Origin: a virus
Strand: one strand, 5' to 3'
DNA length: 64,000 nt
IMG/VR virus record: IMGVR_UViG_3300042302_000730
Location: 1-64,000 of that record
Shown: in pieces, positions 1 through 63,970 of the stretch
Position numbering within the stretch: the stretch's first letter is position 1
How the letters are laid out: the number at the start of each line of letters is the position of its first letter
Made by a program: the position numbers and the translations under genes
Notes under the pieces: model-generated
What the model was told of the DNA's origin: nothing
The model's input: the letters and a program-made list of their open reading frames with translations, nothing else
The model's database searches: none

Positions 1-1059
1 ACTCAATGGATTCCAACAGATGAGTCTGCTGCTAATTTAGTTCCAGACGCCCACATTGAAGGTAAGTTCCATGCTCCAGTGATGACAACTGCAGACCTGG
101 CCTTGAAGTTTGATCCAGAGTACGAAAAGATTTCACGAAGATTCCTTGAAGACTTTGACTACTTCTCAGATCAGTTTGCTCGTGCATGGTTTAAGTTAAC
201 ACATAGAGATATGGGTCCAATTGCAAGATATCTTGGTAAAGAGGCTCCTACAGAAGAACTTATTTGGCAAGATCCAGTTGGCAATGTAACTAGAGATAGT
301 TTGACACAAGAAGATATAGATGCAATTAAAGAAAAGATTATGGCATCTGGTCTATCTGTTTATGATTTGACAACTACTGCTTGGGCATCTGCCTCTACAT
401 TCCGCAAGACAGACAAGCGTGGTGGTGCTAATGGTGCTCGTGTAGTTCTTGCTCCTCAAAATACATGGGAAGTAAATGATCACGATGCTATTGGAAGAGT
501 AGTATCTGTTCTTAATGAAATTAAGAATGATTTCAATGTATCTCTTGCAGACCTTATTGTGTTTGCTGGATTAGTTGGAGTTCAGGTCGCTGCCGATAAT
601 AGCGGAACTGGAGTGGTCATTTCTGCTAAGTTTAGTCGTGGTGATGCAACTCAAGAGCAAACGGATGTTGAATCATTTACAGTGCTTGAACCAAAGTTTG
701 ATGCTTTCCGCAACTACATTCATCCAAGTATTACTGCTCCTGCAGAAGTTATGCTGGTAGAAAAGGCTAACCTGTTGGGTCTAACCCCAGTAGAAATGGT
801 TCTTCTCCTATCCGGAATGAGAATGCTAACTGATGGAAAGTTGGATAACAGTTATCTAGTTAAACTACTCTCATACACAAATGCAGATCAGGCAGGAGAC
901 ACACCTCGTGTAGACCTTATCCTTGCATCTAATTCAGAACTTAGAGCAATTGCAGAAGTGTATGCGTCAGATGATGCTAAGGAAAAGTTTGTTCATGATT
1001 TTGTTTCAGCATGGACAAAGGTAATGAATGCTGATCTATCTATTAAGGAGAATAAGTAA
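1..1059 (+). CDS. katG: catalase-peroxidase KatG, C-terminal part (5' end outside window)
   Basis: The reading frame is open from base 1, so the gene is cut by the window edge; about 352 residues of a family that is usually about 740 long are present. The visible part begins in the linker before the C-terminal peroxidase-like domain and carries family signatures: ADLALKFDPEYEKISRRF, AWFKLTHRDMGP, DATQEQTDVESF, and a C-terminus AWTKVMNADL. Family role: haem enzyme that destroys hydrogen peroxide. The haem-binding N-terminal domain and the Met-Tyr-Trp adduct cannot be checked here. An ATG at 79 is internal to the domain and not the start. It is followed after 0 bp by a small membrane-protein gene. 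A phage-borne katG is unusual; the alternative, a host flank of a prophage, is less likely because the following sequence is phage-like. Confidence 0.93.
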   Translation, partial: TQWIPTDESAANLVPDAHIEGKFHAPVMTTADLALKFDPEYEKISRRFLEDFDYFSDQFARAWFKLTHRDMGPIARYLGKEAPTEELIWQDPVGNVTRDSLTQEDIDAIKEKIMASGLSVYDLTTTAWASASTFRKTDKRGGANGARVVLAPQNTWEVNDHDAIGRVVSVLNEIKNDFNVSLADLIVFAGLVGVQVAADNSGTGVVISAKFSRGDATQEQTDVESFTVLEPKFDAFRNYIHPSITAPAEVMLVEKANLLGLTPVEMVLLLSGMRMLTDGKLDNSYLVKLLSYTNADQAGDTPRVDLILASNSELRAIAEVYASDDAKEKFVHDFVSAWTKVMNADLSIKENK

Positions 1060-1194
1060 ATGAGAAATGCAATGTTTTATTTAGCACATTCAGCAGCAAT
1101 TGTTGGATTGATGATTGGCTCTTATGCTTACGGATTTAAGCAGGCCAAAAATAATTTAACAGAAAAAATATTTAGTTTTACAAAACGCAAGTAA
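1060..1194 (+). CDS. small single-pass membrane protein
   Basis: 44 residues. The ATG directly follows the katG stop, with AAGGAG at 1045-1050 as ribosome binding site. Residues 5-25 are hydrophobic (a likely membrane helix) and the tail is basic (ending TKRK). Co-transcribed with katG by position. I do not recognise the family. Confidence 0.65.
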   Translation: MRNAMFYLAHSAAIVGLMIGSYAYGFKQAKNNLTEKIFSFTKRK

Positions 1195-1218
1195 TAAAAA
1201 TTATACTTAGTTTACTTA

Positions 1219-1289
1219 GCGACTATTGCATAGTGGTAGTGCGTAACCTTGCCAAGGTTAATGTGCGAGTTCGATTCTCGCTAGTCGCT
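1219..1289 (+). tRNA. tRNA-Gly(GCC)
   Basis: Cloverleaf seen by eye: acceptor GCGACTA pairs with TAGTCGC, D-arm GCA/TGC, anticodon arm AACC-TTGCCAA-GGTT with anticodon GCC, T-arm GCGAG-TTCGATT-CTCGC. The CCA end is not encoded (CTC follows). Confidence 0.93.
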
Positions 1290-1297
1290 CTAGTTTA

Positions 1298-2005
1298 TTA
1301 ATGAATTGAAGCAAAATCTGCAAGACTATATTCGGGATTTTCTAAACTGCTTGGAGTAGAAAAAGCAGATTCAAGTATTGTATTCTTTAACTTAAGAAAA
1401 GAATTATCGTCAACAGAGACAAAATAAGCATTTTTATCTAATTGTATTTTTTTTGTAGAGTTATAAATTTTTACATCTTTTATTTGTTCTCCACCAATTT
1501 TGGCAAAATTACCATAAGCCGATCTTGGGAAATAAGCAATATTTAAAGATTCTCTAAGTTTATTTTTATTCATAACCATCGGTACATGAATGTCATAATC
1601 GATTGGGTCTTTTATTCCGCTCATAACTAACTGTTTGTGTGTCAATTCTAATAAACGAATATAGACTGAAGCCATGCCCAATTCTTTATACTGTTTTATT
1701 TTATTAGAAAGAAGCCCCCCATGAAAATTTGGGACACTTTCCATTGTTTTTAAAGCAAAAAAATCATCATTCATTAAAACAAAGTCATCAGATATTTCTG
1801 GATGCTCCGACGCAACTTTAATGCAATTTCTAATATTATCAAATTTTTTAGCAGTATCTTCTATATATATAAAATCACCGATATACCACACTGGTCGATA
1901 TCCTAAAACCCAGACTCTTCCTTTAGGCATATTTTTTTCAATTGACCTTAAAGAATATTTTAATTCTTCATTTTCACCAGCACGAGCAATATAAACATAA
2001 TCCAT
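1298..2005 (-). CDS. Stealth-like / capsule-type glycosyl(phospho)transferase
   Basis: 235 residues. The N-terminus DYVYIARAGENEELKYSLRS and the later SDDFVLMNDDFFAL resemble the CR1 and CR2 regions of Stealth-type sugar-phosphate transferases, a family also seen in actinophages. Expected role: transfer of a sugar or sugar phosphate to a surface glycan. The start is supported by a TATAAT (2012-2017 on this strand) exactly 6 nt before the ATG, which predicts a leaderless mRNA. It is divergent from a GT4 gene. The precise substrate cannot be told. Confidence 0.7.
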   Translation of the reverse strand: MDYVYIARAGENEELKYSLRSIEKNMPKGRVWVLGYRPVWYIGDFIYIEDTAKKFDNIRNCIKVASEHPEISDDFVLMNDDFFALKTMESVPNFHGGLLSNKIKQYKELGMASVYIRLLELTHKQLVMSGIKDPIDYDIHVPMVMNKNKLRESLNIAYFPRSAYGNFAKIGGEQIKDVKIYNSTKKIQLDKNAYFVSVDDNSFLKLKNTILESAFSTPSSLENPEYSLADFASIH

Positions 2006-2011
2006 TTTAAA

Positions 2012-2031
2012 ATTATAGCATGGTGTATAAT
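2012..2031. promoter_or_regulatory. back-to-back leaderless promoters
   Basis: A minus-strand TATAAT at 2012-2017 lies 6 nt from the ATG at 2005, and a plus-strand TATAAT at 2026-2031 lies 7 nt from the ATG at 2039. The two promoters interlock in 33 bp, so their polymerases should exclude each other. Confidence 0.75.
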
Positions 2032-2038
2032 TAACAAG

Positions 2039-3955
2039 ATGGCAAAAATCCTAGTTATAAGCGCAAATCTTCCAGATTGGTCCAAAAATAGTGGTGGCAA
2101 AGAAAGGACCTTGACACTAGTTGAAGCGCTATCAGAGCATGAAGTAACATTTTTATCTTTTAATTGGGATAATGAACTAATTAATAAAAAAATTAATAAA
2201 AATTTACACCACTTTCAGCCACAAATAGGGCACACTCTTTATAAACGTCGGCAAAGATTAGTTAATGATTTTGCAAAACTTAATCATGATACAGTTTTTG
2301 AAATTTTAAAAGATGATTTAGAAATCTTTACTTCAACAGCAAAAGAATTATCAAAAAGTTGTGATCTTATAATCGTTGATCACTATTCTGTTTCTCCCCT
2401 TCTTCAAAATATTAAAAATGTTCCGATTATTTATAATTCTCACAATGCAGAATTTGAGTTGGGGAAACAGGTTCATGGCGAAAGCAAAGAACTAATGGAC
2501 TTAGTTGAAAAAATGGAAACTCGCATTTTAAAACAAGCACAAGAAATTACATATTGCTCTTCCGCAGATTTTGTAAAAATAAAGAATCACTACGGACAAA
2601 GTATTCGTGGAAAATATATTCCAAATGGAACAATAGTCCAGGATAAAATAAATTATGAAAATAGACTTAGGTCTAGGGATATTATTTTTGTTGGTAGTGG
2701 CCATCCACCAAATAAAGCAGCAGCAAAAAAAGTTGTTGCATTTGCTCAGTCCATGCCAGAATTTAATTTTATTATTATAGGGGGGTGCGGTAGTGGCATT
2801 AAATCTCCAAACATTCCTAGCAATGTTCAAATTGTTGGTCATGTAAATGATGAATTATTAGATAAATATTTTAGAACATCTTTTGCTTTTATTAATCCTA
2901 TGCTTAATGGTTCTGGAACACATTTAAAAATGATGAAAGCCCTAGGGTATGCAATTCCAATAATCACATCAACCATCGGTGCACGAGGTTTTTCTGACCA
3001 AGAAATAGAAGAAGCAATGTTGATTGCAGACGATGAGGACGGTTTTTATGAAAAAGTTAAAATGCTTAAAAATAAAGAAGTTTATAAAAATTTATGTGAA
3101 AACGCATACAGGCACTCACAAACTTACAATTGGGATAAAATAAAAAAAGACTATGCAAATTTTATTAATGATTGCGTAAATAAATATGTTGAAAACAAAA
3201 AAGAAAGTGCTAGTCTTAAAAAAGAAAAAGAAAAAATTCTAATATGTTCTATTGTTAGAAATGACGAACATTTCTATTTAGACTATTATAAGAAAATTAA
3301 AGCAATGGTAGATTTTTTTCCAGAATACGAGTTTTATTTGTCTTTATATGAGAATGACTCAGTAGATGCGACAAGCAGTTTAATGCTCAAGCAAGACTAT
3401 TCAATGTTTAATGGTGTGTCAATTATTTCTGAAAAAATTAATACACGGTTTTATGGTTCTTCAAAAGATGAGGATAGAGTAAAAAACCTATCACTGGCAA
3501 GGAACAAAGCCTTAACAGCAAACAACTTTTTAAATAGTGTTAATTATGTTTTAATGATAGATGTAGATGTAGATTTTAAAATGTCCGATGTTGAAAAAAT
3601 ATTAAATTTTAAAGACCTAGAGCCTAATTTTGATATTGTTGCAGCAGCAACCAAAAGAAGAAAAGTCCTGTATGATCAGTGGGCAACAAGAGAAGGGCCC
3701 AGGTATGACCCAGCAATTCAAGAGTTGTTTGAGCAATACAAAAAAGAAAAATATACAAAATATTATTCTGTTTCTAGTGGGTTTTGTTTATACCAAGCCC
3801 AACCATTTAGAGATGGGGCTAGGTATGGCTATATAAATAAAGAAACTGGTGAGCCAGATTGTGAAATGGTAGTTATTTGTCAAGAATTTCAAGAAAGAGG
3901 GCATAAGAGTATATACATGGCTAATCAAGCAGAAATGACACATAATCATAATTAG
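2039..3955 (+). CDS. two-domain glycosyltransferase: GT4 fused to GT69/CAP59-like domain
   Basis: 638 residues. Residues 1-385 are a GT-B fold family 4 enzyme: SGGKERTLTL near the N-terminus, IYNSHNAEFE, a nucleotide-sugar region GSGHPPNKAAA, and the HLKMMKALGYAIPIITS segment typical of the C-terminal Rossmann half. After a charged linker, residues about 398-638 form a GT-A-like domain: ICSIVRNDEHFYLDYY, ENDSVDAT, LARNKAL and the metal motif DVDV, resembling the CAP59/GT69 mannosyltransferases. The fusion suggests two consecutive sugar transfers. Leaderless promoter at 2026-2031. Confidence 0.8.
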   Translation: MAKILVISANLPDWSKNSGGKERTLTLVEALSEHEVTFLSFNWDNELINKKINKNLHHFQPQIGHTLYKRRQRLVNDFAKLNHDTVFEILKDDLEIFTSTAKELSKSCDLIIVDHYSVSPLLQNIKNVPIIYNSHNAEFELGKQVHGESKELMDLVEKMETRILKQAQEITYCSSADFVKIKNHYGQSIRGKYIPNGTIVQDKINYENRLRSRDIIFVGSGHPPNKAAAKKVVAFAQSMPEFNFIIIGGCGSGIKSPNIPSNVQIVGHVNDELLDKYFRTSFAFINPMLNGSGTHLKMMKALGYAIPIITSTIGARGFSDQEIEEAMLIADDEDGFYEKVKMLKNKEVYKNLCENAYRHSQTYNWDKIKKDYANFINDCVNKYVENKKESASLKKEKEKILICSIVRNDEHFYLDYYKKIKAMVDFFPEYEFYLSLYENDSVDATSSLMLKQDYSMFNGVSIISEKINTRFYGSSKDEDRVKNLSLARNKALTANNFLNSVNYVLMIDVDVDFKMSDVEKILNFKDLEPNFDIVAAATKRRKVLYDQWATREGPRYDPAIQELFEQYKKEKYTKYYSVSSGFCLYQAQPFRDGARYGYINKETGEPDCEMVVICQEFQERGHKSIYMANQAEMTHNHN

Positions 3956-3999
3956 TTTGATATAATATAAAGAAGTGCAAGTCTACTAGAATAGGAGGA

Positions 4000-4113
4000 A
4001 TGATGCGTATTAAAATTATTAAGTTTGTTGTAAAGGCTCTTGGATACCAGTGGTCTGGGGATGATCTAAAGTTACCAGTCTGGTATGTAAAAGAAAAAAA
4101 GAAGGTAAAGTAA
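4000..4113 (+). CDS. small basic protein, unknown
   Basis: 37 residues starting MMRIKIIKF and ending KEKKKVK. A strong AGGAGG lies at 3993-3998 and the stop overlaps the next start (TAATG), so it is coupled to the nuclease gene. No known domain. Confidence 0.6.
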   Translation: MMRIKIIKFVVKALGYQWSGDDLKLPVWYVKEKKKVK

Positions 4114-4520
4114 TGTTTGAGTATTATGTTAAAAAAGTAAATAAAGTTGTAGATGGGGATACAATTGATGTAGATATAGATTTAGGGTTTGATATATCTT
4201 TTAGTTCAAGGGTAAGACTTGCGGGCATAGATACTCCAGAATCTCGTACGACAGATAAAATGGAAAAGGCTTTAGGCCTTGAGGCAAAGGCATTTTTAAA
4301 ACATGAAATTGAGGCAGCCAAAACTGTGGTAATTAAAACAGAAAAAATGGATTCATCAGAAAAATATGGAAGAATTTTAGGATGGGTTTTCTTGGACGGA
4401 TCGGATAAATCTATTAATCAAAAGATGATTGATGTAGGTCATGCCTGGGGATATCTGGGCGAAACAAAAATTAAAGATTTTGAAGCACTTTCTAAAGCAA
4501 GAAAAATCTCTAAAATTTAA
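4113..4520 (+). CDS. thermonuclease (SNase-like)
   Basis: 135 residues. The staphylococcal-nuclease motifs fall at almost the same numbering: VVDGDTI (14-18), D21, R35, the GIDTPE motif with D40, T41 and E43, and R87 in KYGRILG. All catalytic and Ca2+-binding positions are present, so it should be an active, Ca2+-dependent sugar-non-specific endonuclease. There is no signal peptide, so it would act in the cell, for instance in host DNA breakdown. Overlaps the preceding gene by 1 bp. Confidence 0.9.
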   Translation: MFEYYVKKVNKVVDGDTIDVDIDLGFDISFSSRVRLAGIDTPESRTTDKMEKALGLEAKAFLKHEIEAAKTVVIKTEKMDSSEKYGRILGWVFLDGSDKSINQKMIDVGHAWGYLGETKIKDFEALSKARKISKI

Positions 4521-4530
4521 TTATAAAATT

Positions 4531-4559
4531 TTTACCCTTTAAGACAAATATGCTATAAT
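4531..4559 (+). promoter_or_regulatory. sigma-70-type promoter of hsp20
   Basis: TTTACC at 4531-4536, 17 bp spacer, extended -10 TGCTATAAT at 4551-4559. Unlike most genes here it makes a leader of about 50 nt. Confidence 0.75.
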
Positions 4560-4564
4560 AGACA

Positions 4565-4589
4565 TGTACCTGCTCAAATGAGGGGTACA
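4565..4589 (+). promoter_or_regulatory. hairpin in the hsp20 5' leader
   Basis: TGTACC (4565-4570) pairs with GGTACA (4584-4589), with an inner CTCA/TGAG pairing. It would be the first element of the mRNA, just upstream of the AAGGAG site. It may stabilise the mRNA or act as a temperature-sensitive element; it does not itself cover the ribosome binding site. Confidence 0.5.
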
Positions 4590-4616
4590 ACTAACTTGCT
4601 TAAAAAGGAGAAAAAA

Positions 4617-5033
4617 ATGGTAAGTACGTTCGCTATGGATCTTTTTAAAGATCCTTTTTTTATTGGCTTCAATCGTGAATTGGAGCGTTTTGGCAATCTA
4701 CATAAGGTAAATAGTCAATCATACCCACCTTATGATCTTTTAAAACTAGACGAAGATAATTATATTTTATCTTTAGCGGTTGCTGGTTTTTCTAAAGATA
4801 ACATTAATATCTCTATTGATAATGATTCGCTTATTATTAAAGGAGAACTGGTAGAGGTTACTGATGCCGAAGTCATTCATAAGGGGATTGCTGGTCGTAA
4901 ATTTACCCGCACATTTGCTCTTGGTGAATATATGGAAGTAACTGGGGCAAAACTTGAAGATGGTTTGTTAACTATTAATGTTACCCGCCTTGTTCCAGAA
5001 GAAAAAAAACCAAAAACAATCAAAGTAAAATAA
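4617..5033 (+). CDS. small heat shock protein Hsp20
   Basis: 138 residues from the ATG at 4617, chosen because AAGGAG (4605-4610) lies 6 nt upstream; an ATG at 4578 in the same frame has no ribosome site. Alpha-crystallin domain from about residue 35: YDLLKLDEDNYILSLAVAGF, INISIDNDSLIIKGE, GIAGRKFTRTFALGEYMEV, and the A-x-x-x-x-G-L-L motif (AKLEDGLLTINV), followed by the C-terminal KPKTIKV that resembles the I-x-I tail. Role: ATP-independent holdase chaperone. Hsp20 genes are known in some cyanophages; here it might assist virion assembly. Confidence 0.93.
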   Translation: MVSTFAMDLFKDPFFIGFNRELERFGNLHKVNSQSYPPYDLLKLDEDNYILSLAVAGFSKDNINISIDNDSLIIKGELVEVTDAEVIHKGIAGRKFTRTFALGEYMEVTGAKLEDGLLTINVTRLVPEEKKPKTIKVK

Positions 5034-5070
5034 TATAATATAATATAACTCTGCATCCTCTCATCAGGAA

Positions 5071-5099
5071 GTCGCAGATATGTCGGGGGAGACAGCGAC
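5071..5099 (+). ncRNA. candidate structured RNA after hsp20
   Basis: GTCGC (5071-5075) pairs with GCGAC (5095-5099) and an inner TGTC (5081-5084) pairs with GACA (5091-5094) around a GGGGGA loop. Repeated TATAAT units (5034-5048) lie just upstream. The 5034-5178 interval has no convincing gene, so this may be a short RNA or 3' UTR structure. Confidence 0.35.
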
Positions 5100-5117
5100 A
5101 AAAAATAACTGGATACA

Positions 5118-5142
5118 CCTGAGCATGTGTATAAAGTGCTCA
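5118..5142 (+). repeat. conserved 3'-UTR stem-loop, copy 1
   Basis: Stem TGAGCA (5120-5125) and TGCTCA (5137-5142) with an 11-nt loop TGTGTATAAAG, preceded by CC. It lies 85 nt past the hsp20 stop and is the plus-strand member of a five-copy family; the others follow minus-strand genes at 25-28 kb. Confidence 0.7.
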
Positions 5143-5143
5143 C

Positions 5144-5172: not shown

Positions 5173-5178
5173 TAGTAT

Positions 5179-10709: not shown

Positions 10710-11440
10710 TAAATTACCAACCGTATCAAAACTATTTTGATGTTTTAGGAAAAAATAAAGATAACATTGTCATAATTAATAATTTTATTAATGATGAAGA
10801 TTTGTTAGCCATTAATAATTATCTTGATTTGTACAAAGATAATGATGAGTTTATAGGTGGAAAAGATTTAAGACAAGAAAAGGTCAAAGAAGAAAATCCC
10901 GCAGTTGCAGAAATTCTTGATAAATATGAGAAAAAAATATATGAAAAAGTTTACGAACTTTTTACTGAAAAATATCAAATTCCTGTTATTAGAAAGCCAG
11001 TTAATCCTACACATTTTGTTAAGTGGGTTCCTGGAATGAACTCTAAACTGCATTGTGATTGTGAAAAACCAGATGGAACTCCAGCGCTTGCTGCAGATTT
11101 TTACACTTATAATGTGTCAGTTTTGATGTACCCAAATGATGAATATGTTGGAGGAGAAATTACTTTTCCAGACTATGATTTAACTTTAAAGCCAAAACCA
11201 GGAGACATGATTCTTTTTCCAGGAAACAATTCATATAAGCATACCGTACAAACAGTAGAAAGTGGAAGAAGGTACACTATGCCTTCTTGGTATAGTTTTG
11301 ATGTTAACGAGCCAGTAAGTAAACAAAATAAAGAATATTCATATAAAGATTCTGTTCAACTTTGGGAAGGCTTACCAGATTTTGATAAGATAGATCCACT
11401 TGGAATTGAGACTAGAGAAAATTATAATGAAAGATTATAA
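10706..11440 (+). CDS. prolyl-4-hydroxylase-like 2OG-Fe(II) oxygenase
   Basis: 244 residues from the ATG at 10706 (AGGAG at 10694-10698); an in-frame TTG at 10673 is rejected. Core: KLHCDCE (H-x-D), YVGGEITFPDYDL, KPGDMILFPGNNSYKHTV and RRYTMPSWY. All metal and cosubstrate residues are present. The extra C-terminal 40 residues (KEYSYKDSVQLW onward) are not part of the fold. It overlaps genes on both sides. Confidence 0.87.
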   Translation: MINYQPYQNYFDVLGKNKDNIVIINNFINDEDLLAINNYLDLYKDNDEFIGGKDLRQEKVKEENPAVAEILDKYEKKIYEKVYELFTEKYQIPVIRKPVNPTHFVKWVPGMNSKLHCDCEKPDGTPALAADFYTYNVSVLMYPNDEYVGGEITFPDYDLTLKPKPGDMILFPGNNSYKHTVQTVESGRRYTMPSWYSFDVNEPVSKQNKEYSYKDSVQLWEGLPDFDKIDPLGIETRENYNERL

Positions 11441-11720
11441 ATGGAAAGACTCTGCTTTATGTTTAGGGCAGCCAACTTCTGCTTTTTTTGAACAATACGA
11501 AGAAGGCAGTTTGGATTATAAAAATGGCATAGATCAATTTTGTTTAAATTGTCCAGTATTAAAAAAATGCTTTGCCGTTGGAGTATCTGGAAAGGAATAT
11601 GGTCTTTGGGGTGGAATATATTTAGAAGAAGGGGAGCCGTCAAAAGAGTTTAATTCTCACAAAACAAAAGAAAAATGGTCGACTCACTGGAAAGCATTAA
11701 CAATGGATAAAGAGTTATAG
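11427..11720 (+). CDS. WhiB-like Fe-S transcription regulator
   Basis: 97 residues from the ATG at 11427. Four cluster cysteines C12, C39, C42 and C48 have the exact C-x26-C-x2-C-x5-C order, followed by the GLWGG turn (59-63). WhiB proteins are found only in actinobacteria and their phages; they bind a 4Fe-4S cluster and work with the primary sigma factor. A basic C-terminal tail (KTKEKW) could bind DNA. It probably redirects host or phage transcription. Overlaps the oxygenase gene by 14 bp. Confidence 0.88.
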   Translation: MKDYKWKDSALCLGQPTSAFFEQYEEGSLDYKNGIDQFCLNCPVLKKCFAVGVSGKEYGLWGGIYLEEGEPSKEFNSHKTKEKWSTHWKALTMDKEL

Positions 11721-45924: not shown

Positions 45925-47400
45925 ATGGCAACAGTAACAAAAGATTTTAAAGTTAAATATGGTCTAATCGTTGAAGGTGCGACAGCAACCGTTAACGGAA
46001 ATGACGTTCTTACAAAATCAGCAGGAGACACAACTTACATACAGGGACTTATTGGTGGAGTAGCAAACTCAGCATCAGTAGCAAATGCTATTGTACTTCG
46101 TGATGGCAACAAAAACTTTGCTGCAAACGTAATTACAGCAGATCTTGTTGGAGATGTAACTGGTCAAGTATCAGACATTTCAAACTTTGATACTGATGAT
46201 TTATCAGAAGGAACTTCAAACCTTTACTTTACAAATGCACGTTCAAAGTCTGCAACAGCAGATCTTTTAACTGGTGCAACTCTAACAAACATTACAATTA
46301 CAGGATCAGGTTCAGGACTTACTATCTCTGCAGAAAACGGTGTAGCAGATTCTGATACTGACGACCTAACAGAAGGTACAACAAACCTTTACTTTACAAA
46401 TGCACGTGCCCAAGCAGCACTTGCTGGATCATACGATCTTGCAGGCGCAGCAGCAAATGCATTATCAGATGCACAAGATTATGCAGATGAAGCAGCAGCC
46501 AACGCTGTAGCAGCAATTGTTGATTCAGCACCAGATTTGCTTAATACTCTTAATGAATTAGCAAACGCAATTGGTGATGACGCAAACTTTGCTGTAACAC
46601 TTGCTAACTCAGTTGCATTAAAGCAAAACATTTTAACTGCAGGGTCAAACATTGATATTACAGGAAATACAATTTCTGTAACTAGCCTTGACACAGATGA
46701 TGTTTCAGAAGGTGCTTCTAATCTTTACTTCTCAAATGCTCGTGCACAAGCAGCAACTGCAGCATCATATGACGCAGCAGGAACCGCAGCAAATGCAATC
46801 GCAGCACTTGACACAGACGATATTGAAGAAGGAGCAAGTAACCTTTATTTCTCAAATGCTCGTTCAAAGTCAGCAGCAGCAGATCTTTTAACTGGTGCAA
46901 CACTTTCAAACATTACAATAACAGGCTCAGGCGCAGGACTTACTATTACCGCTGAAAACGGTGTAGGAGATTCTGATACTGATGATTTAGTAGAAGGAAC
47001 TTCAAACCTTTACTTCTCAAATGCTCGTGCAGTATCTGCTCTTGAAGCAGTTGTTCCAAACTTTGTAGCAGTTGAGTTATCCTCAGTTGCTAAGCAGGTT
47101 GCAGCACAACTATCAGCACCAACAGCAGGAATTCAAGTAGCACATTCTTTTGCAAAGGCTGAATATCGTTCAGCAGAATACCTTGTAAAGGTTGCTTACG
47201 GAGCACACACTGAAATTTCAAAGGTCCTTTTGACACTTGATACTTCAGATAACATTGCAATCACTGAATACGCAATTGTTGGAACCAATGGTTCAGCATC
47301 AACAATTTCAGCAAGTATTTCAGGAGCAGATGTCCGACTCAATGTAACAACTGCTAATAACAGTTCAACAGTAACAGTTGTCGGAACACTAGTAGCGTAA
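45925..47400 (+). CDS. long tail fibre protein with tandem repeats
   Basis: 491 residues. Five copies of the motif DTDDLSEGTSNLYFTNAR (near residues 88, 148, 255, 295, 351) separated by beta segments such as LTNITITGSGSGLTIS; Ala-rich helical stretches between (LAGAAANALSDAQDYADEAA). The ends are a trimerising N-domain (KYGLIVEGA) and a globular C-domain. Confidence 0.8.
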   Translation: MATVTKDFKVKYGLIVEGATATVNGNDVLTKSAGDTTYIQGLIGGVANSASVANAIVLRDGNKNFAANVITADLVGDVTGQVSDISNFDTDDLSEGTSNLYFTNARSKSATADLLTGATLTNITITGSGSGLTISAENGVADSDTDDLTEGTTNLYFTNARAQAALAGSYDLAGAAANALSDAQDYADEAAANAVAAIVDSAPDLLNTLNELANAIGDDANFAVTLANSVALKQNILTAGSNIDITGNTISVTSLDTDDVSEGASNLYFSNARAQAATAASYDAAGTAANAIAALDTDDIEEGASNLYFSNARSKSAAADLLTGATLSNITITGSGAGLTITAENGVGDSDTDDLVEGTSNLYFSNARAVSALEAVVPNFVAVELSSVAKQVAAQLSAPTAGIQVAHSFAKAEYRSAEYLVKVAYGAHTEISKVLLTLDTSDNIAITEYAIVGTNGSASTISASISGADVRLNVTTANNSSTVTVVGTLVA

Positions 47401-47429
47401 TAAAAAATAACTAAAAACGGGGGAGATAA

Positions 47430-47885
47430 ATGGCAACAGTAGAAAAAGACTTTAAGATCAAAAATGGCCTTATTGTTACTGCTGGCGGTAGTTTTGGAAA
47501 TGCTGTAGTAGTTGGAACTCCAACTGAAAGCACCCATGCAACCACTAAAGCATATGTTGATTCAGTAACTGGCGCAATGCCAGCATCATCAACTGCCCCC
47601 GTTTCTCCAACAAATGGACAACTATGGTTTGATACGTTAACATCTCGAGTCAACGTTTATTACAATGGTTCTTGGATTACAATTGCAACAATTGATGATA
47701 CACAAACACTACCAGATCACATTCACGATACAGCAATAGATGGAACTGGTTTTATAGTCAGCCAATTTATAAGTAGTGGATTTTATAATGCACCACAAGG
47801 AACACCACAAGATGCAGGATTACCATCAACATCATCTTGGACATTAACGTATGATGGCGGAACAGCAACAGATAATTTTAACTAA
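47430..47885 (+). CDS. short tail fibre protein
   Basis: 151 residues. Begins ATVEKDFKIKNGLIVTAGG, parallel to the 45925 start, and contains STHATTKAYVDSVTG and a PVSPTNGQLWFDT segment, common in fibre genes. Confidence 0.7.
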   Translation: MATVEKDFKIKNGLIVTAGGSFGNAVVVGTPTESTHATTKAYVDSVTGAMPASSTAPVSPTNGQLWFDTLTSRVNVYYNGSWITIATIDDTQTLPDHIHDTAIDGTGFIVSQFISSGFYNAPQGTPQDAGLPSTSSWTLTYDGGTATDNFN

Positions 47886-47932
47886 AATAATCTGTTATAA
47901 TTATACCCATAACCCCCAGGAGGAAATAAAAA

Positions 47933-49672
47933 ATGGCAACTAGAATGCAACAGCGCAGAGGTACAGCAGCACAATGGGCTGCAGCAAATCCAGTACTGGG
48001 CGCAGGAGAAATTGGCTTTGAAACAGATACCAACAAGTTTAAAGTAGGTAATGGAAGTACTGCATTTGCAAGCCTACAATATTTCGTAGATGCCTCCATT
48101 GTATTTGATTCATCAGAGGTTACTACTGCTATAAATAATGCAATTGATGCGGTTATCGACGCAGCACCAAACACACTAAATACTCTTAATGAGATTGCAG
48201 CAGCAATTGGAGATGACGCAGGATTTGCAAATTCGATTACTCAAAATCTTGCAAACATCCAAAATGTTTTAACACAGCAAAGTAATACTAATTCTAGCCT
48301 TAGCAACTCTATTGCAAGCACAAATAATGCCTTGTCAGTACTTGATCAAGATCATTATGCAGTCAAAACTTCAGTTGAAAATCATGCTAACGCAACCTCA
48401 AATGTCCATGGTATTATAAACGCTTTTACCTTAGTCTATGATGAAGATCTTGATGTAGTTTCTAATTCATTAGCAGGTCATGAATCAGCAACCTCAAATG
48501 TCCATGGTATCTCAAACGTATTTAGTCTAGTCTATGACGAAGATCTTGTTGCAGTTTCTAATTCATTAGCAGACCATGAATCAGGAAATACAAGCGTACA
48601 TGGTATTTCAAATACACTAAACCTTGTTTACACAAACGATTCACGTCTTTCAGATGAAAGAACTCCAGTTTCTGATTCTGTCACAACAGCAAAAATTGCA
48701 AATGCAGCAGTAACTGGACCTAAGATTGCAGACAATGCAATTTCACAATCACATTTAAGTGATGACTCAGTTGGAACTAATGAACTTGGTGGCCTTTCTG
48801 TTACAACAGAAAAACTTGCTAATGCAGCAGTAACTACTGCAAAAATTGCAGAAGGAGCAGTTACAAAGACTATGGTAGGGCTTTCAGATGTTGACAATAC
48901 ATCAGATGCAAATAAGCCAGTATCAAGTGCTACACAGACAGCCCTTGATCTTAAGGCTAATCTTGCAGGACCAACATTTACAGGAACAACAACAGTTGAC
49001 GCTCTTACTGTAGATGGAAATTTAACAGTAAATGGAAATACCTTTGCAGTATCATCAACGAGTATTACAGTTGAAGACAATATTCTTCAACTTGCTCACG
49101 AAAATCCAGCAAATACGATTGACCTTGGCCTTGTAGTTGCATACAATGATGGAACAGCAAAACACTCAGGATTAGTAAGAGACGCATCTGATGCTAAGTG
49201 GAAACTGTTTAAAGGCGTAACAACAGAGCCAACAACTACCATTGATTTTACAGAAGGGTCACTTGATGACATTAAAGTTGCTGCACTTGAGGCTACAACA
49301 GTAACCCCCTCATCTGGAGTAGTATTCCCAGACGGAACACAAACAAAAGAAGGCGTTCCTTCACGAACACCAATTATTTCAAAGACTGCTTCTTATACTC
49401 TTTCAGCAGAATCAGAAAGAGACTCATTAATTGAAGTAAGTTCAGAATCAGGAACAACAATCACCATCCCACTAAATAGCGCAGTTGCTTATCCAGTAGG
49501 AACCACATTGGATATTCTACAGACTAACACTGGACAGGTTACAATTGCTGGCGATGCTGGAGTAACAGTAAATGCTACTCCTGGACTTAAACTTCGTACA
49601 CGTTGGTCATCTGCAACATTATTTAAGAGAGCAGAAAACTCTTGGGTAGTCTTTGGAGATCTTTCAGCGTAA
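47933..49672 (+). CDS. long tail fibre protein
   Basis: 579 residues. The N-terminus RMQQRRGTAAQWAAANPVLGAGEIGFETDTN is a well-known fibre domain. Three repeats near residues 145-235 (NVHGI...LVYDEDL...SNSLA.HES), a KIA(N/D)-rich helical part, and a C-terminal tip paralogous to the 38826 protein. AGGAGG before the start, with TATAAT at 47896-47901. Confidence 0.8.
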   Translation: MATRMQQRRGTAAQWAAANPVLGAGEIGFETDTNKFKVGNGSTAFASLQYFVDASIVFDSSEVTTAINNAIDAVIDAAPNTLNTLNEIAAAIGDDAGFANSITQNLANIQNVLTQQSNTNSSLSNSIASTNNALSVLDQDHYAVKTSVENHANATSNVHGIINAFTLVYDEDLDVVSNSLAGHESATSNVHGISNVFSLVYDEDLVAVSNSLADHESGNTSVHGISNTLNLVYTNDSRLSDERTPVSDSVTTAKIANAAVTGPKIADNAISQSHLSDDSVGTNELGGLSVTTEKLANAAVTTAKIAEGAVTKTMVGLSDVDNTSDANKPVSSATQTALDLKANLAGPTFTGTTTVDALTVDGNLTVNGNTFAVSSTSITVEDNILQLAHENPANTIDLGLVVAYNDGTAKHSGLVRDASDAKWKLFKGVTTEPTTTIDFTEGSLDDIKVAALEATTVTPSSGVVFPDGTQTKEGVPSRTPIISKTASYTLSAESERDSLIEVSSESGTTITIPLNSAVAYPVGTTLDILQTNTGQVTIAGDAGVTVNATPGLKLRTRWSSATLFKRAENSWVVFGDLSA

Positions 49673-53165: not shown

Positions 53166-55196
53166 ATGTTAGACTTTTTTTCTTTTAAATTATCGCCAGA
53201 ATTCCTAGAGAGTTATAAACAAACAGAACCTCCTTTTGGATTTAAAGATGCTGCTACTAACTCTTTAGGAGAAATCACTTTTATTCGTACTTATTCTAGG
53301 ATGAAAGAAGATGGGACTAAAGAAAGATGGCATGAAGTTTGCAAACGTGTAGTTGAAGGAATGTATTCAGTACAAAAAAATCATGCTAAAGAAAATAGAC
53401 TCCCGTGGAATGATTATAAGGCTCAAAAATCTGCTCAAGAAGCATACGACCGTTTATTTACATTAAAATGGACACCACCTGGTCGTGGTCTTTGGGCTTT
53501 TGGAACTCCAATGACTATGGAAAGCCGTAACTCTGCATCTCTTCAAAATTGTGCAATGGTCTCTACCCGTGATATTGACAGAAACGATCCAGGAGCATTG
53601 TTCGCTTGGGTTATGGATGCATTAATGTTAGGCATAGGAGTAGGGTTCGATACTCTTGGACAAGATAAAGAAATGTCTATTTACTCTCCAACAGAACCAG
53701 AAAATATCTGGGATATTCCAGATACTCGTGAAGGCTGGGTAGATTCTGTAAGAATGCTTTTAAATTCATACCTGCGCCCTAATCAGGCTATACAAAAGTT
53801 TAACTATGACCTTATCCGTCCTCTAGGAGCCCCTATAAAAGGCTTTGGAGGGGTTGCCAGCGGCCCAGGACCACTTATTGCATTACACAATAAGATAGAT
53901 AAAGTAATTGGTGGTAGAGCAGGAGAAACACTTGATTCTCGTGCAATAGTAGATATTGTAAACCTTATTGGCACATGTGTTGTTTCTGGAAATGTTCGTC
54001 GTTCTGCTACATTGGCTTTAGGGTTACCAGAAGATAAAGATTTTATTAATTTAAAAAATGCAGAGGTTTTTCCAGATAGAAATTCTTTTGATTCAGAAAA
54101 TCCAGGATGGGCCTGGATGTCTAATAATTCTATTTCAGCAGAAGTTGGAACAAAATATGAAGACTATGTTGACCTAATTGTAGATAACGGAGAGCCAGGT
54201 TTTATTTGGCTAGATGTTGCTCGTAACTATGGACGCCTTGCAGATCCTGCAGATGGAAAAGATTCTCGTATCATGGGATTTAATCCTTGCGCTGAACAAC
54301 CACTAGAGTCTTACGAACTTTGCACATTAGTAGAAGTTCATCTTAATAGACATGAAGACAAAGAAGATTTTTTACGCACATTGAAGTTTGCATATCTATA
54401 TGGCAAAACTGTAACACTCATGCCAACACACTGGCAAACCACAAATGGAATTATGCAACGTAATCGTCGTATTGGAACATCTTTAACTGGAATTGCATCT
54501 TTTGCAGACACTAAAGGTATGCCAACGGTACGACAATGGATGGATGAAGGGTATCGAAAGATTCGCTCATATGACCATAGTTATTCGGAATGGCTATGCG
54601 TTAGAGAGTCAATTCGTGTAACTACCGTCAAACCTTCTGGCTCTGTTTCATTGCTTTCTGGTGCTACTCCAGGAGTTCATTGGGGTCCAGGAGGAGAATT
54701 TTATCTTCGTGCTATAAGGTTTGGCAATACAGATCCAATGATGCATTTATTTAAAGCAGCAGGATATAAAATTGAAGATGATGTAGTATCAGCAAACACT
54801 TCAGTAGTATATTTCCCAGTAGCATCTGGGCACCCAAGATCTGAAAAAGATGTAAGTCTTTTTGAAAAAATTGGTCTAGCAGCAACTGCTCAAAAATATT
54901 GGTCAGACAATGGGGTATCTGTAACACTTTCATTTGATAAAGAAACAGAGTCTAAGTTTATTGCTCCCGCCTTACACATGTACGAGGGGCAATTAAAAGC
55001 AGTATCATTCTTGCCCATGGGAAATAAAACATATCCACAGCAACCTTATACTCAAATAACCAAAGAAGAATATAATTCTTATGTTGGAAAAATTGGAAAG
55101 ATTGATTGGTCTGCTATTTACGATGGCGTAAAAAATTTAGAAGCACAGGGCGAGGCTTATTGTAGTACAGATGCCTGCGAAATTAAGTTTTACTAA
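53166..55196 (+). CDS. nrdJ: class II (B12-dependent) ribonucleoside-triphosphate reductase
   Basis: 676 residues, monomeric RTPR type as in Lactobacillus leichmannii (about 740). NSASLQNCAM has the first redox Cys; NPCAEQPLESYELCTLVEV carries the thiyl Cys and its partner; VKPSGSVSLLSGATPGVHWG is the substrate loop; CSTDAC at the C-terminus is the mobile Cys pair. All five key cysteines are present. It turns ribonucleotides into deoxyribonucleotides for phage DNA using adenosylcobalamin, so the host must supply B12. No partner subunit is needed. Confidence 0.93.
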   Translation: MLDFFSFKLSPEFLESYKQTEPPFGFKDAATNSLGEITFIRTYSRMKEDGTKERWHEVCKRVVEGMYSVQKNHAKENRLPWNDYKAQKSAQEAYDRLFTLKWTPPGRGLWAFGTPMTMESRNSASLQNCAMVSTRDIDRNDPGALFAWVMDALMLGIGVGFDTLGQDKEMSIYSPTEPENIWDIPDTREGWVDSVRMLLNSYLRPNQAIQKFNYDLIRPLGAPIKGFGGVASGPGPLIALHNKIDKVIGGRAGETLDSRAIVDIVNLIGTCVVSGNVRRSATLALGLPEDKDFINLKNAEVFPDRNSFDSENPGWAWMSNNSISAEVGTKYEDYVDLIVDNGEPGFIWLDVARNYGRLADPADGKDSRIMGFNPCAEQPLESYELCTLVEVHLNRHEDKEDFLRTLKFAYLYGKTVTLMPTHWQTTNGIMQRNRRIGTSLTGIASFADTKGMPTVRQWMDEGYRKIRSYDHSYSEWLCVRESIRVTTVKPSGSVSLLSGATPGVHWGPGGEFYLRAIRFGNTDPMMHLFKAAGYKIEDDVVSANTSVVYFPVASGHPRSEKDVSLFEKIGLAATAQKYWSDNGVSVTLSFDKETESKFIAPALHMYEGQLKAVSFLPMGNKTYPQQPYTQITKEEYNSYVGKIGKIDWSAIYDGVKNLEAQGEAYCSTDACEIKFY

Positions 55197-59434: not shown

Positions 59435-59839
59435 ATGAATTTAAATAATAAGCCTAAAAAGAGTAAAGCCTTGCCTAAAATGAAGGGCCAAGTTGGAGAG
59501 TCTCGTATAAAAGTAATTGATAAATACTATGATTGGGGCCTTTATGTTTATAAGAAATCAAATGGAAAATGGTTTACCGATGGAACTGGATCTGTTTTAA
59601 ATATTCCCGCTATGAAAGGGGACATATCAAAAATATCAGAATTAAAAAATGCCGCAAAACACTATGGAGACCCAGGAGACGGTGAGTGCATTTTTGTTCC
59701 AGGTTTAAATAGAATTTCAGAAGAAGAATATTCAGAACAAAAAGACAGAATGTCTCAAGGGCTAATACCAAATATGAACGATTTAGGAGCAGTGCACGCA
59801 GCGCAGCAAACAGTAAAGAAATGGGGATCAGACGACTAA
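59435..59839 (+). CDS. head-proximal hypothetical protein
   Basis: 134 residues from the ATG at 59435, 7 nt after TATACT (59422-59427); an ATG at 59429 is also possible. Lys-rich start, then YYDWGLYVYKKSNGKWFTDGTG. A gene of this size often precedes the portal gene. One-base overlap with the portal. Confidence 0.66.
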   Translation: MNLNNKPKKSKALPKMKGQVGESRIKVIDKYYDWGLYVYKKSNGKWFTDGTGSVLNIPAMKGDISKISELKNAAKHYGDPGDGECIFVPGLNRISEEEYSEQKDRMSQGLIPNMNDLGAVHAAQQTVKKWGSDD

Positions 59840-61428
59840 TGAGTGAAGAAACGCAATACAATATTGGTGCAAGCATTGATGAGTTAGTTGATATAAATGA
59901 TCAATTTAAAAAAAGCGATCCTTTTAATAAAACTTGGGATGAATTAAAAAATTTAACTGGTTTAGATAATAATTTTAAAAGACGTGCTGCAAGAATGTCC
60001 AAAGTAGAAGCAAGTCCAGCATACATGAATAGTGCTCTTGCAATTAGTTCAGGACGTGATGACGCAAAATCTAAAGAAATTAATCCAGGAGTTTTGTATA
60101 GAAATGCTTATGGTTTATTTGATGTTATTACCCCACCATGGAACGTTTATGAATTGGCAAATTATTACGATACATCTTTTGCTAACCATGCAGCAATCGA
60201 TGCAAAAGTAGAGAATATTGTTGGACTTGGTTACAAATTTGAAATTTCTCCCAGAACAATGTTAAAACTAGAAGCATCTATGGATACTGCATCAACCGAC
60301 CGTGCTCGTAAAAGAATTGAAAGATCAAAAATTGAACTTACAGACTGGCTAGAAAGTTTAAATACAGATGATTCATTTACAACAACTATGGAAAAAGTTT
60401 ATACAGACGTGCAAGCAACAGGAAATGGTTACCTAGAAATTGGAAGAACTACAAGAGGAGAAATTGGGTATGTTGGACATATTCCTGCAACAACAATGCG
60501 TGTGCGTCGCATGCGTGATGGTTTTGTTCAAATTATTGCAAACAAGGTAGTTTATTTTAGAAATTTTGGGGCTAAAAATCCTAATCCAGTCACACTAGAC
60601 AATCGTCCAAATGAAATTATTCATTTAAAACAATACTCTCCATTAAACACATTTTATGGAGTGCCAGATATTATTTCTGCCATTTCTTCATTACATGGAG
60701 ATCAGTTGGCATCTCAATACAATATAGATTATTTTTCTAACAAGGCTGTTCCAAGATATGTTGTTACATTAAAAGGAGCAAAACTTTCTTCAGATGCTGA
60801 AGATAAGATGTTTAGATTTTTGCAGACAAATTTAAAAGGACAATCTCATAGAACTCTTTATATTCCTCTTCCCGGAGATAGCGATAACAATAAGGTTGAG
60901 TTTAAAATGGAGCCAATTGAAAATGGTATTCAAGATGGTTCTTTTAAAGAATACAGAAAACAAAATCGTGATGATATTTTGATTGCTCATCAAGTTCCAT
61001 TATCAAAATTAGGGGGATCTGATTCTTCTGCAATTGCAGCAGCCCTATCCCAAGATCGTACATTTAAAGAGCAAGTTGCAAGACCAGCACAGCGCCAAAT
61101 AGAAAAAATGATTAATAAAGTTATTCGTGAAAAAACTGATATTTTAGAATTTAAATTTAACGAACTAACACTTACAGATGAAATTGCTCAATCTCAAATT
61201 CTTGAAAGATACGTAAAGACTCAAGTTATGCTTCCAAACGAAGCAAGACAGCAACTTGGACTCCCTCAAGCGCCACATGGAGATGAACCATTTCAATTAA
61301 AACCACAAGACGCAGCAAATGACACTGCAAATCGACAAAGAGATTCTGAAAGAACAAATACTCAATCTGACGGGGCAGCAACAGTTTCTGGTAGAAATCC
61401 AAAGGGTTCTGGCAGAGCGTCTCAATAA
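59839..61428 (+). CDS. portal protein (HK97 type)
   Basis: 529 residues. The core YRNAYGLFDVITPPWNVYELANYY, IHLKQYSPLNTFYGVPDIISAISS and the DDILIAHQVPLSKLGG motif mark the Phage_portal family. A 30-residue polar tail ends the protein. It forms the dodecamer through which DNA enters the head. Gene order portal-protease-capsid follows. Confidence 0.92.
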   Translation: MSEETQYNIGASIDELVDINDQFKKSDPFNKTWDELKNLTGLDNNFKRRAARMSKVEASPAYMNSALAISSGRDDAKSKEINPGVLYRNAYGLFDVITPPWNVYELANYYDTSFANHAAIDAKVENIVGLGYKFEISPRTMLKLEASMDTASTDRARKRIERSKIELTDWLESLNTDDSFTTTMEKVYTDVQATGNGYLEIGRTTRGEIGYVGHIPATTMRVRRMRDGFVQIIANKVVYFRNFGAKNPNPVTLDNRPNEIIHLKQYSPLNTFYGVPDIISAISSLHGDQLASQYNIDYFSNKAVPRYVVTLKGAKLSSDAEDKMFRFLQTNLKGQSHRTLYIPLPGDSDNNKVEFKMEPIENGIQDGSFKEYRKQNRDDILIAHQVPLSKLGGSDSSAIAAALSQDRTFKEQVARPAQRQIEKMINKVIREKTDILEFKFNELTLTDEIAQSQILERYVKTQVMLPNEARQQLGLPQAPHGDEPFQLKPQDAANDTANRQRDSERTNTQSDGAATVSGRNPKGSGRASQ

Positions 61429-61469: not shown

Positions 61470-62804
61470 ATGATTATAACTAAGGCCCAATGGAACACTG
61501 AGGGCGAGCAACTTCGACTTTCAATGCCTTTTAGTAAGGTAGATAAAGAAAGACGCACAGTTTCAGGCTTTGCCACATTAGATAACGTTGACAAACAAGA
61601 TGACATTGTTACAACAGAAGCAAGTTTAAAAGCATTTAAAAAATTTCGTGGAAACATTCGTGAAATGCATCAGCCATCTGCTGTTGGAAAAATGGTTTCG
61701 TTTAAAGAAGATAAATATTATGATACAAAATCAGAAAAAATGTACAACGGAGTTTTAGTTTCTGCATATATTTCAAAGGGTGCACAAAATGCATGGGAAA
61801 AAGTTTTAGATGGAACATACACAGGATTTTCAATAGGTGGAAAAATGAATAAATGGGACGAAGCATATGACGATCAAGTACAAAAACAAATTAGAGTTAT
61901 TAAAGATTATGATTTAGTAGAATTGTCACTAGTTGATAGTCCAGCAAACCAATTTGCAAATATTGTTTCTGTAGAAAAAGTAGATGGTGTAGATATTGTA
62001 AAAGGTATGGATACACCAATTGAAAATGTTTTTTGGGATAAAGAATCTGGAATTGTTATGGTTTCAGAAAATGAATCAGAATTAAGCCCTACCTCTGGTA
62101 TTCAAATGCAAAACATAGGTTTCGTTGAAAAAACAGACAACGAGAAAACAAGCATGATCAAGTTCTTAGTTGAAAGTGCTAATGGCACAAGTATTTCTAA
62201 GATAGACAAGGAGGAAAATCCTATGGCAAAAACAACAAAAAAAGAAGCAACAGAAATTGTTGAGAAATCTATTGCTACTGTTGAAGATGTTCAGGTCGCT
62301 CCACAAGAAGATGCCGTAGTTGAAGTTGCTGAAGTTACAAAATCAGAAGATGTTGTAGCAGAAACAATTTTAACAACCGAGCAGGCTGTGGTAGCAGAAG
62401 TAACTAAGGCAGAAGAGCCAACAGTTTCAGAAGTTACTAAGTCTGAAGAGGTAGTTTCTGAAGTTAAGACTGAAGAAGTATCTAAGTCTGATGTAGTAAT
62501 TGCAGAAGCAGTTACAGAAATCAACAATACTCTCACATCAGCCTTTGGCGATCTAGTTGCAACCGTTAAGTCTCTGCAAGAGCAGGTTAATGCAATTACA
62601 AAATCAATTGGAGCAGTAGCACAAGATGTTTCTGCAACAAGAGATGAGTTTAATGAATTTGGAAAGCGTGTAGATGCCGTTGAAGCAGATACAGCATTCC
62701 GAAAATCTGGCGATCTCGGTGAGATTGTTCAGGAACAACCAGAAATGGTTGAGAAATCCCTATGGGGCGGACGTTTCCTCAAAACAGCCGATCTATTTAG
62801 ATAA
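61470..62804 (+). CDS. prohead serine protease fused to scaffold
   Basis: 444 residues. Protease part (1-180): catalytic His in REMHQPSAVG, Ser in YTGFSIGGK, and LVELSLVDSPAN, as in XkdF-like/S78-type prohead proteases. The C-terminal half is acidic and Val/Glu/Thr-rich, then coiled coil (TSAFGDLVATVKSLQEQVNA), typical of scaffolds. It ends SLWGGRFLKTADLFR. An internal start at 62223 would make the scaffold alone. Confidence 0.88.
   Translation: MIITKAQWNTEGEQLRLSMPFSKVDKERRTVSGFATLDNVDKQDDIVTTEASLKAFKKFRGNIREMHQPSAVGKMVSFKEDKYYDTKSEKMYNGVLVSAYISKGAQNAWEKVLDGTYTGFSIGGKMNKWDEAYDDQVQKQIRVIKDYDLVELSLVDSPANQFANIVSVEKVDGVDIVKGMDTPIENVFWDKESGIVMVSENESELSPTSGIQMQNIGFVEKTDNEKTSMIKFLVESANGTSISKIDKEENPMAKTTKKEATEIVEKSIATVEDVQVAPQEDAVVEVAEVTKSEDVVAETILTTEQAVVAEVTKAEEPTVSEVTKSEEVVSEVKTEEVSKSDVVIAEAVTEINNTLTSAFGDLVATVKSLQEQVNAITKSIGAVAQDVSATRDEFNEFGKRVDAVEADTAFRKSGDLGEIVQEQPEMVEKSLWGGRFLKTADLFR
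62223..62804 (+). CDS. scaffold protein from nested in-frame start
   Basis: 193 residues. AAGGAGG (62208-62214) lies 8 nt before an ATG in the same frame as the protease gene, the strongest ribosome site in the region. This gives a second product (MAKTTKKEATEIVEKS...), like the nested scaffold of lambda C/Nu3. Confidence 0.78.
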   Translation: MAKTTKKEATEIVEKSIATVEDVQVAPQEDAVVEVAEVTKSEDVVAETILTTEQAVVAEVTKAEEPTVSEVTKSEEVVSEVKTEEVSKSDVVIAEAVTEINNTLTSAFGDLVATVKSLQEQVNAITKSIGAVAQDVSATRDEFNEFGKRVDAVEADTAFRKSGDLGEIVQEQPEMVEKSLWGGRFLKTADLFR

Positions 62805-62824: not shown

Positions 62825-63970
62825 ATGTCGGAAGAAATTAAGAAAAACCAGCCAGGTACAAGCGGACAACTGGGCGGAACAACTCCAGGCCTTTACCAAG
62901 GTCAGGGTGCATTCGCATCAGGTTCAGACGCAGCAGCAAACGTACCGGGAAATTACGGTGATGGTGGAGAACTTGGAAATATTCCAGTCGCACTAGCAGG
63001 CGTAACAACAGGCGCAAACGCAGTAAACCCTTCAGGTGATGTCGGAAGCGGTATTCTTCGTCCAGAACAAGCACGTCGTTTTATTGACTATGTTTGGGAC
63101 GCAACAGTACTTGCTCAAGATGGTCGTCGTGTAACAATGAAGGCTAACACCATGGAACTTGAAAAAGTTAACGTTGGTGAGCGTGTAATCCGTGCTGCTT
63201 CACAAGCAGTTGGTGACTACACTAACGCAGGAGCAACATTCAGTAAGGTAGAACTTACAACCAAGAAGATTCGTCTAGATTGGGAAGTTGCAGCAGAAGC
63301 ACTAGAAGATAACATCGAAGGTGCACAACTAGAAGACCACATCGTTCGTCTTATGACAAACGCATTTGGTAATGACATTGAAGATCTAGCCATTAATGGT
63401 GACGGATCAACAGGATCATTCCTTTCAATTATGGATGGTTTCGTTAATAAGGTCAAGACAGATGGAGATGCTCACGAGTCAGAAGTGACCGTAGTAGATA
63501 ATGCTTGGACAACAGGCGTTATGCAAGATATCATCCTAGCAATGCCACGTAAGTATCGTGCTATCAAGCAGAACCTAAAGTTCTATGCTGGTACAGATGC
63601 TTTCCAAGGTATTGTTAAGAATAATGGTACTCTTGCAGATGCTGTTGCAGAGGCTTTTGCTGGTCAAGTACCAGGAAGCACTCAAGCAAATCGTCAAGAC
63701 TACCTAGATGGAATGGGCCAAACATTCGGTGGAGCACGTACAACTCGTGTTCTTGGTGTTGCGGTTCAAGAAGTTCCTTACTACCCTGCAGGCTATGTAG
63801 ATCTTACATTCCCAGCAAACCGTGTATGGGGTTTCCAACGTGATATCACTGTTAACCGTGAGTACAAGGCAAAGAAAGACACTGTAGAATATACAGTATT
63901 TGTTCGCTTTGGTATTCAATGGGAAGAGCAGGATGCAATTGCGTTCGCTGACGCTGCTTCAGATTCTTAA
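62825..63970 (+). CDS. major capsid protein (HK97 fold)
   Basis: 381 residues. A flexible Gly-rich N-terminal 80 residues, then RRFIDYVWDATVLAQDGRRVTMKANTMELEKV, GDYTNAGATFSKVELTTKKIRLDWEVAAEALEDN and a C-terminal YTVFVRFGIQWEEQDAIAFA. This fits a phage coat protein of the HK97 family. AGGAGG upstream. Codon use is more G+C-rich than in the tail genes, as expected for high expression. No gene can be called in the last 30 bases. Confidence 0.92.
   Translation: MSEEIKKNQPGTSGQLGGTTPGLYQGQGAFASGSDAAANVPGNYGDGGELGNIPVALAGVTTGANAVNPSGDVGSGILRPEQARRFIDYVWDATVLAQDGRRVTMKANTMELEKVNVGERVIRAASQAVGDYTNAGATFSKVELTTKKIRLDWEVAAEALEDNIEGAQLEDHIVRLMTNAFGNDIEDLAINGDGSTGSFLSIMDGFVNKVKTDGDAHESEVTVVDNAWTTGVMQDIILAMPRKYRAIKQNLKFYAGTDAFQGIVKNNGTLADAVAEAFAGQVPGSTQANRQDYLDGMGQTFGGARTTRVLGVAVQEVPYYPAGYVDLTFPANRVWGFQRDITVNREYKAKKDTVEYTVFVRFGIQWEEQDAIAFADAASDS

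Follow-up and report, generated by a model that had tools for sequence, protein, structure and literature searches.

A complete catalase-peroxidase gene in the tRNA array of a phage that probably infects freshwater actinobacteria

The phage described here encodes a complete catalase-peroxidase (KatG), and we consider it likely that this phage of freshwater actinobacteria carries the enzyme as cargo, destroying peroxide during infection and thereby protecting a catalase-poor host. The analysis started from a stretch of viral DNA of 64,000 nucleotides, hereafter the window. The gene lies, together with a gene for a 44-aa membrane peptide, as a discrete cassette inside the phage tRNA array. From its sequence and its surroundings we infer the production of KatG, its heme supply, the removal of peroxide and a benefit during infection. 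Few freshwater bacteria are as abundant as the acI actinobacteria, and a phage-borne, mobile KatG of host origin makes it testable whether viruses, and not neighbouring bacteria, supply catalase to acI during infection.

katG is complete and lies in a phage genome

The window opens with a plus-strand open frame of 352 aa (positions 1-1059), which matches TIGR00198 (catalase/peroxidase HPI) at model positions 333-709 with E = 6.7e-100 and corresponds to the 3' half of katG, coding for residues 336-687 of a KatG of 687 aa. Its 5' part is missing, since the first base of the window is also base 1 of its source, an IMG/VR virus record of 80,741 bp (G000). Two other contigs, L003 (IMGVR_UViG_3300034284_001545) and L004 (IMGVR_UViG_3300044547_001498), are 100% identical to window positions 1-11056 and extend further upstream; the whole gene can therefore be read (L004:8996-11059, 687 aa). 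The full-length product scored 960 bits against TIGR00198 (curated cut-off 770.25) and 1075 bits against NF011635 (cut-off 981). It passes both NCBIfam curated cut-offs and is thereby predicted to be a catalase-peroxidase (KatG, HPI).

Upstream of katG, L004 encodes a repetitive tail-like protein, two small membrane proteins, a CHAP endolysin, a carbamoyltransferase, DUF6065-like genes and a 2OG oxygenase, followed by the tRNAs for Asn, Glu and Met and then katG. On the other side, the window contig continues with the 44-aa peptide, tRNA-Gly, glycosyltransferase-like genes and WhiB, and further downstream with tail genes, ribonucleotide reductase, portal, head protease and major capsid (Table 1). 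The original prediction had placed a katG C-terminal half beside phage genes and had pointed to the upstream contig for the rest. Indeed, the analysis found the TIGR00198 match, the complete gene, and phage genes to either side of it.

A gene at the extreme end of a contig, where assembly errors typically occur, and whose product is widespread in bacteria could also be host chromosomal DNA misassembled onto a phage contig, or mark a prophage border. This explanation is scarcely credible. L003 and L004, which are independent contigs with 11 kb of identical sequence, run on into phage genes upstream, exactly where host chromosomal genes had been named as the sign of a prophage border or a chimera, and in L004 and its relatives phage tRNAs and phage genes flank katG on both sides. 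A distinct katG relative lies within G003, a genome of 110,437 bp with an exact 105-bp direct terminal repeat. The L003 and L004 contigs and the G003 genome therefore rule out a chimera or a prophage border. Moreover, a scan of IMG/VR found a KatG relative encoded on at least 93 viral contigs, 80 of which were kept, the empty site of a sister phage sits cleanly among phage tRNA genes (see below), and the GC3 of katG (0.28) is phage-like (mean of the phage ORFs, 0.24). katG thus belongs to a bona fide phage genome and, with its position among host KatGs (see below), is a putative auxiliary metabolic gene.

Table 1. Features of the katG locus and of the phage genome around it. Positions refer to the window unless a contig is named.
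Feature	Position	Strand	Basis
Upstream tRNA-Asn, -Glu, -Met (off the window contig)	L004:8721-8952		ARAGORN
katG, 3' half	1..1059	+	TIGR00198 match; 5' part off the contig, in L004:8996-11059; contigs L003/L004 100% identical
44-aa predicted single-membrane-span peptide	1060..1194	+	Starts right after the katG stop codon
Right cassette boundary	1195..1218	.	Empty site of G594: tRNA-Met and tRNA-Gly joined with 3 bp, TAC shared with both edges
tRNA-Gly(gcc), 3' neighbour of the cassette	1219..1290	+	ARAGORN
WhiB-family regulator	11400..11720	+	Pfam PF02467, E 7e-10, above cut-off
Tail / tail-fibre proteins, two ORFs	45925..49672	+	PHROGs
Ribonucleotide reductase	53166..55196	+	phrog_367, E 1e-142
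Portal protein	59821..61428	+	phrog_12, E 4e-56
Head maturation protease	61470..62804	+	phrog_9427, E 7e-114
Major capsid protein, type A	62825..63970	+	phrog_1623, E 2e-74

The encoded enzyme appears to be functional

Ten active-site and catalase-specific positions were checked in an alignment of 75 full-length viral copies. The distal Arg-Trp-His and proximal His-Trp-Asp residues (R89, W92, H93, H255, W306 and D367 in L004) are invariant in 75/75, and so are the residues of the Met-Tyr-Trp adduct and the mobile (switch) arginine (W92, Y214, M240 and R404). By this alignment, the heme pocket and the catalase-specific residues of KatG are all retained, and formation of the covalent Met-Tyr-Trp adduct is predicted. 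Pairwise dN/dS values of 0.07-0.15 over a large divergence point to purifying selection on phage katG. Taken at this level, the phage KatG is apparently a working catalase-peroxidase.

The AlphaFold model (pTM 0.76) superimposes on KatG of B. pseudomallei (6mpy; 59% identity) with a TM-score of 0.85. It predicts the duplicated two-domain fold with a heme-free C-terminal domain, which is shortened yet confidently modelled (pLDDT about 80-95). Standard KatGs, as in the B. pseudomallei and M. tuberculosis structures, share this fold and the catalytic residues with the phage protein, but they have about 720-740 aa compared to 687, two loops of the C-terminal domain being removed in the phage. These loops were lost stepwise within the phages: L060 keeps both, the L056-L066 types are without the first, and the window type is without both. 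The actinobacterial KatGs are chromosomal, unlike the phage gene in its tRNA array, and most of them keep the C-domain loops; two from small actinobacterial genomes, L195 (G438) and L235 (G590), are also without both. L195 and L235 did not group with the phage KatGs in the tree despite the same loop losses.

Phage katG derives from actinobacterial KatGs and has moved between phages

To place the gene, we used a 59-row tree and a careful 30-row tree, that is, the phylogeny against host katG which the original prediction had called for. The main viral clade clusters (support 100/99) with L236, the chromosomal KatG of an actinobacterium with a 1.3-Mb genome. A second viral katG clade also belongs to this grouping, less firmly (84/76). 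The group of viral sequences and L236 sits inside the KatGs of a single actinobacterial family with small genomes, and the AU test rejected a tree constrained to keep the host copies apart from the phages (p = 0.017). These trees place the origin of the main-clade phage katG among the KatGs of a streamlined actinobacterial family. Another viral copy, L081, falls into a different acI-type KatG group. A single origin of all viral katG genes was ruled out (AU p 7e-7), and the position of L081 therefore points to at least two captures.

By capsid, the ten katG phages compared belong to two types, A and B, whose capsids share about 39% identity. KatG of the window phage, which has a type-A capsid, is nearer to KatG of the type-B phages G003 and G009 than to that of the type-A phages G006, G007 and G012. 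Forcing the type-A KatGs together was rejected (AU p = 9.2e-25), as was forcing the type-B KatGs together (p = 2.0e-7), so that a KatG tracking the capsid lineage could be ruled out. The conflict between the KatG tree and the capsid split therefore shows that katG moves between phages, and that it has been exchanged among phages with unrelated capsid types.

katG and a membrane peptide form a cassette

In most of the scanned viral loci of the main clade, katG has phage tRNA genes around it or next to it. The boundaries of the cassette became visible by comparison with G594, a katG-less sister phage whose capsid is 99% identical to that of the window phage and which shares 62 ORFs with it (median identity 88.6%). 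The tRNA order Asn-Glu-Met-Gly is common to G594 and the window lineage. The gap between tRNA-Met and tRNA-Gly, however, measures 3 bp in G594 and 2.25 kb in the window lineage, where it holds katG and the 44-aa peptide. Blastn and inspection of the sequence revealed the triplet TAC at the cassette edges and at the empty site. The pair of filled and empty sites could have arisen by gain of the cassette or by its loss, in either direction. Together with the capsid-incongruent KatG tree, this pair is a tangible example of a single gene travelling as cargo among uncultured phages.

The gene for the 44-aa peptide comes immediately after katG in 42 of the 65 viral loci of the main clade, and G594 does not have it. 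A Pfam search of the peptide gave no match; this membrane micropeptide of unassigned family is possibly a functional partner of KatG. Of the 36 non-redundant copies of the main clade, nine carry an extended -10 promoter-like site, TGNTATAAT, immediately upstream of katG, compared to 0.12 expected by shuffling, and three others have a promoter-like -35/-10 pair. Among 18 capsid-close relatives, many of them fragments, none carries katG, indicating that the gene is dispensable; one of them, G598, has exact 102-bp terminal repeats and looks complete.

The host is probably a streamlined freshwater actinobacterium

WhiB is a marker of Actinobacteria. A WhiB gene is present in the window, and 13 of the 14 long virus records with katG have one, whereas a control search gave a match only in Corynebacterium; an actinobacterial host is therefore supported. 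The window major capsid is 37-44% identical to the capsids of Streptomyces phages such as Comrade and Coruscant, which resemble the window phage in genome size (128-133 kb) and have an actinobacterial host. No closer capsid relative was present among 50,697 phage records, and the records of Comrade/Coruscant-type Streptomyces phages gave no match for katG.

The host family defined by the KatG phylogeny encodes katG in 66 of 151 genomes and ferrochelatase in 8 (143 without), counts that are lower bounds, since most of the genomes are probably incomplete assemblies. For acI, patchy katG, growth that depends on added catalase and the lack of a heme pathway have been described (PMC7527133). The passages of that paper on Ca. 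Nanopelagicales, including Kim et al. cited there, report patchy katG and near-absent heme synthesis, as in the family of the relatives, and heme auxotrophy of acI is likewise described in the available passages of PMC10202952. Because the low katG and ferrochelatase counts match these descriptions, we take the host family as acI-like. The host is probably a member of the streamlined freshwater actinobacteria, acI family Nanopelagicaceae. The family name follows from small genomes (0.9-2.2 Mb), the katG pattern and the near absence of ferrochelatase, and the assignment as a whole draws on WhiB and phylogeny rather than on an isolate. A search for the phage capsid in 201 genomes of the host family gave no meaningful match. 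The WhiB genes, the KatG phylogeny and what is published on the catalase dependence of acI are all in keeping with the peroxide-sensitive planktonic host proposed in the original prediction, here an actinobacterial one.

What KatG may do during infection

We propose that the phage would make KatG during infection and that the enzyme would take its heme from the host and destroy hydrogen peroxide by the normal cycle, using heme and the Met-Tyr-Trp adduct. A host with weak or no catalase would thereby survive, with its metabolism running, up to lysis. Trimming of the C-terminal loops may reflect phage economy in a structural domain that is free of heme. As the host family is mostly without ferrochelatase, heme would have to be scavenged and could limit the phage KatG; this makes the working of a heme enzyme in a heme-auxotrophic host accessible to study. 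One consideration speaks against this proposal by analogy: KatG of Ca. Planktophila rubra, the one acI KatG assayed, showed low activity (PMC7527133), and the phage clade descends from KatGs of the same family.

This weak activity would also fit a phage KatG that is a degenerating or low-activity passenger, as would the stepwise loss of two C-domain loops and a host that, with ferrochelatase in only 8/151 family genomes, is mostly unable to make heme. We regard such a passenger as unlikely, because all catalytic residues are kept in 75/75 copies, dN/dS is about 0.1 over a large divergence and katG has spread among phages; moreover, the same two loops are missing from the host chromosomal KatGs L195 and L235. 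KatG might instead serve another use, such as holding or buffering scarce heme or countering an oxidative host defence, with the 44-aa membrane peptide as a possible partner. The heme-poor host family, the conservation of the peptide after katG and a heme oxygenase gene directly after katG in the second phage clade can be cited for it. However, the residues specific to the catalase reaction are fully conserved, the main clade is without heme oxygenase, and the analysis came across no known oxidative defence against phages, so that we think such a use quite improbable. Peroxide removal on behalf of the host is the reading we prefer. A wider version of it can be offered only tentatively: the cassette of katG and membrane peptide might travel among unrelated actinophages and supply peroxide defence, with host-scavenged heme, to hosts whose catalase is lost or weakened. 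In lakes, catalase activity would then be a shared good on which acI bacteria rely and which phages have turned into mobile cargo, some copies of which stand beside glutathione peroxidase or, in the second clade, heme oxygenase.

Relation to known systems and neighbouring genes

Phage katG as such is already known; the cassette, its origin and the likely host are new within the searchable literature. The original prediction had assumed that very few phage katG genes exist, which the at least 93 IMG/VR contigs contradict, as do the accessible passages of PMC12713726 and PMC13390420 on katG as a viral auxiliary metabolic gene. For freshwater, the former lists katG among viral auxiliary genes with reference to a Lake Mendota survey, and the latter plots katG gene and transcript counts of estuary viruses, not tied to the window phage. 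Like the window katG, these genes are phage-carried and come from inland and estuarine water; the same passages give no host, locus, full-length analysis, cassette or phage-to-phage transfer for katG. In the searchable literature, which leaves subscription papers outside, we found no description of an actinophage link, a cassette, an origin, swapping between capsid lineages or C-domain trimming for phage katG. The cultured Planktophila phages E7 and F5 infect acI and carry whiB and glycosyltransferase genes, as does the window phage, but their genomes have 39 kb and katG is not mentioned in the available passages (PMC10202952). Isolate phage databases gave seven katG matches (40-59% identical to the query), all Salmonella/Acinetobacter assembly records or short Escherichia/Salmonella fragments, which we judged by their record names to be bacterial DNA.

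The neighbours of katG vary from phage to phage, whereas the tRNA setting recurs. The suggestion that katG supports oxygenases was not supported: 2OG oxygenases lie near several copies, and no constant partner emerged. In the second clade, a heme oxygenase gene (PF01126) is located directly downstream of katG (L070:11193-11819, L079:11257-11907, and also L071, L075 and L080); in L079 it is followed by a terminase large subunit gene. Glutathione peroxidase genes (PF00255) were found near katG at L056:7666-8481 and 8543-8971, at L030:12830-13294, and in L014, L021, L026 and L031, and those in L056 end 22 bp upstream of katG. As a constant partner, glutathione peroxidase was not supported (4/14 katG records versus 1/8 without katG).

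Some further genes of these phages deserve mention. The carbamoyltransferase upstream of katG in the same phage is of the NodU type (L004:3684-5129). Window positions 2039-3955 encode a protein of 638 aa whose N-terminal part is of glycosyltransferase type and whose C-terminal part matches CAP59 mannosyltransferase (PF11735); such a protein is unusual in a phage. A gene of unassigned function at 25209-26225 (phrog_1221, E 5e-103) adjoins tRNA-Asp, and this stretch has about 78% DNA identity with L042 and L046, although their katG loci differ. Two katG phages encode a tmRNA, at L070:14909-15239 and L077:6057-6357, with the tag peptides GTQSAFALAA and ANSQSAFALAA.
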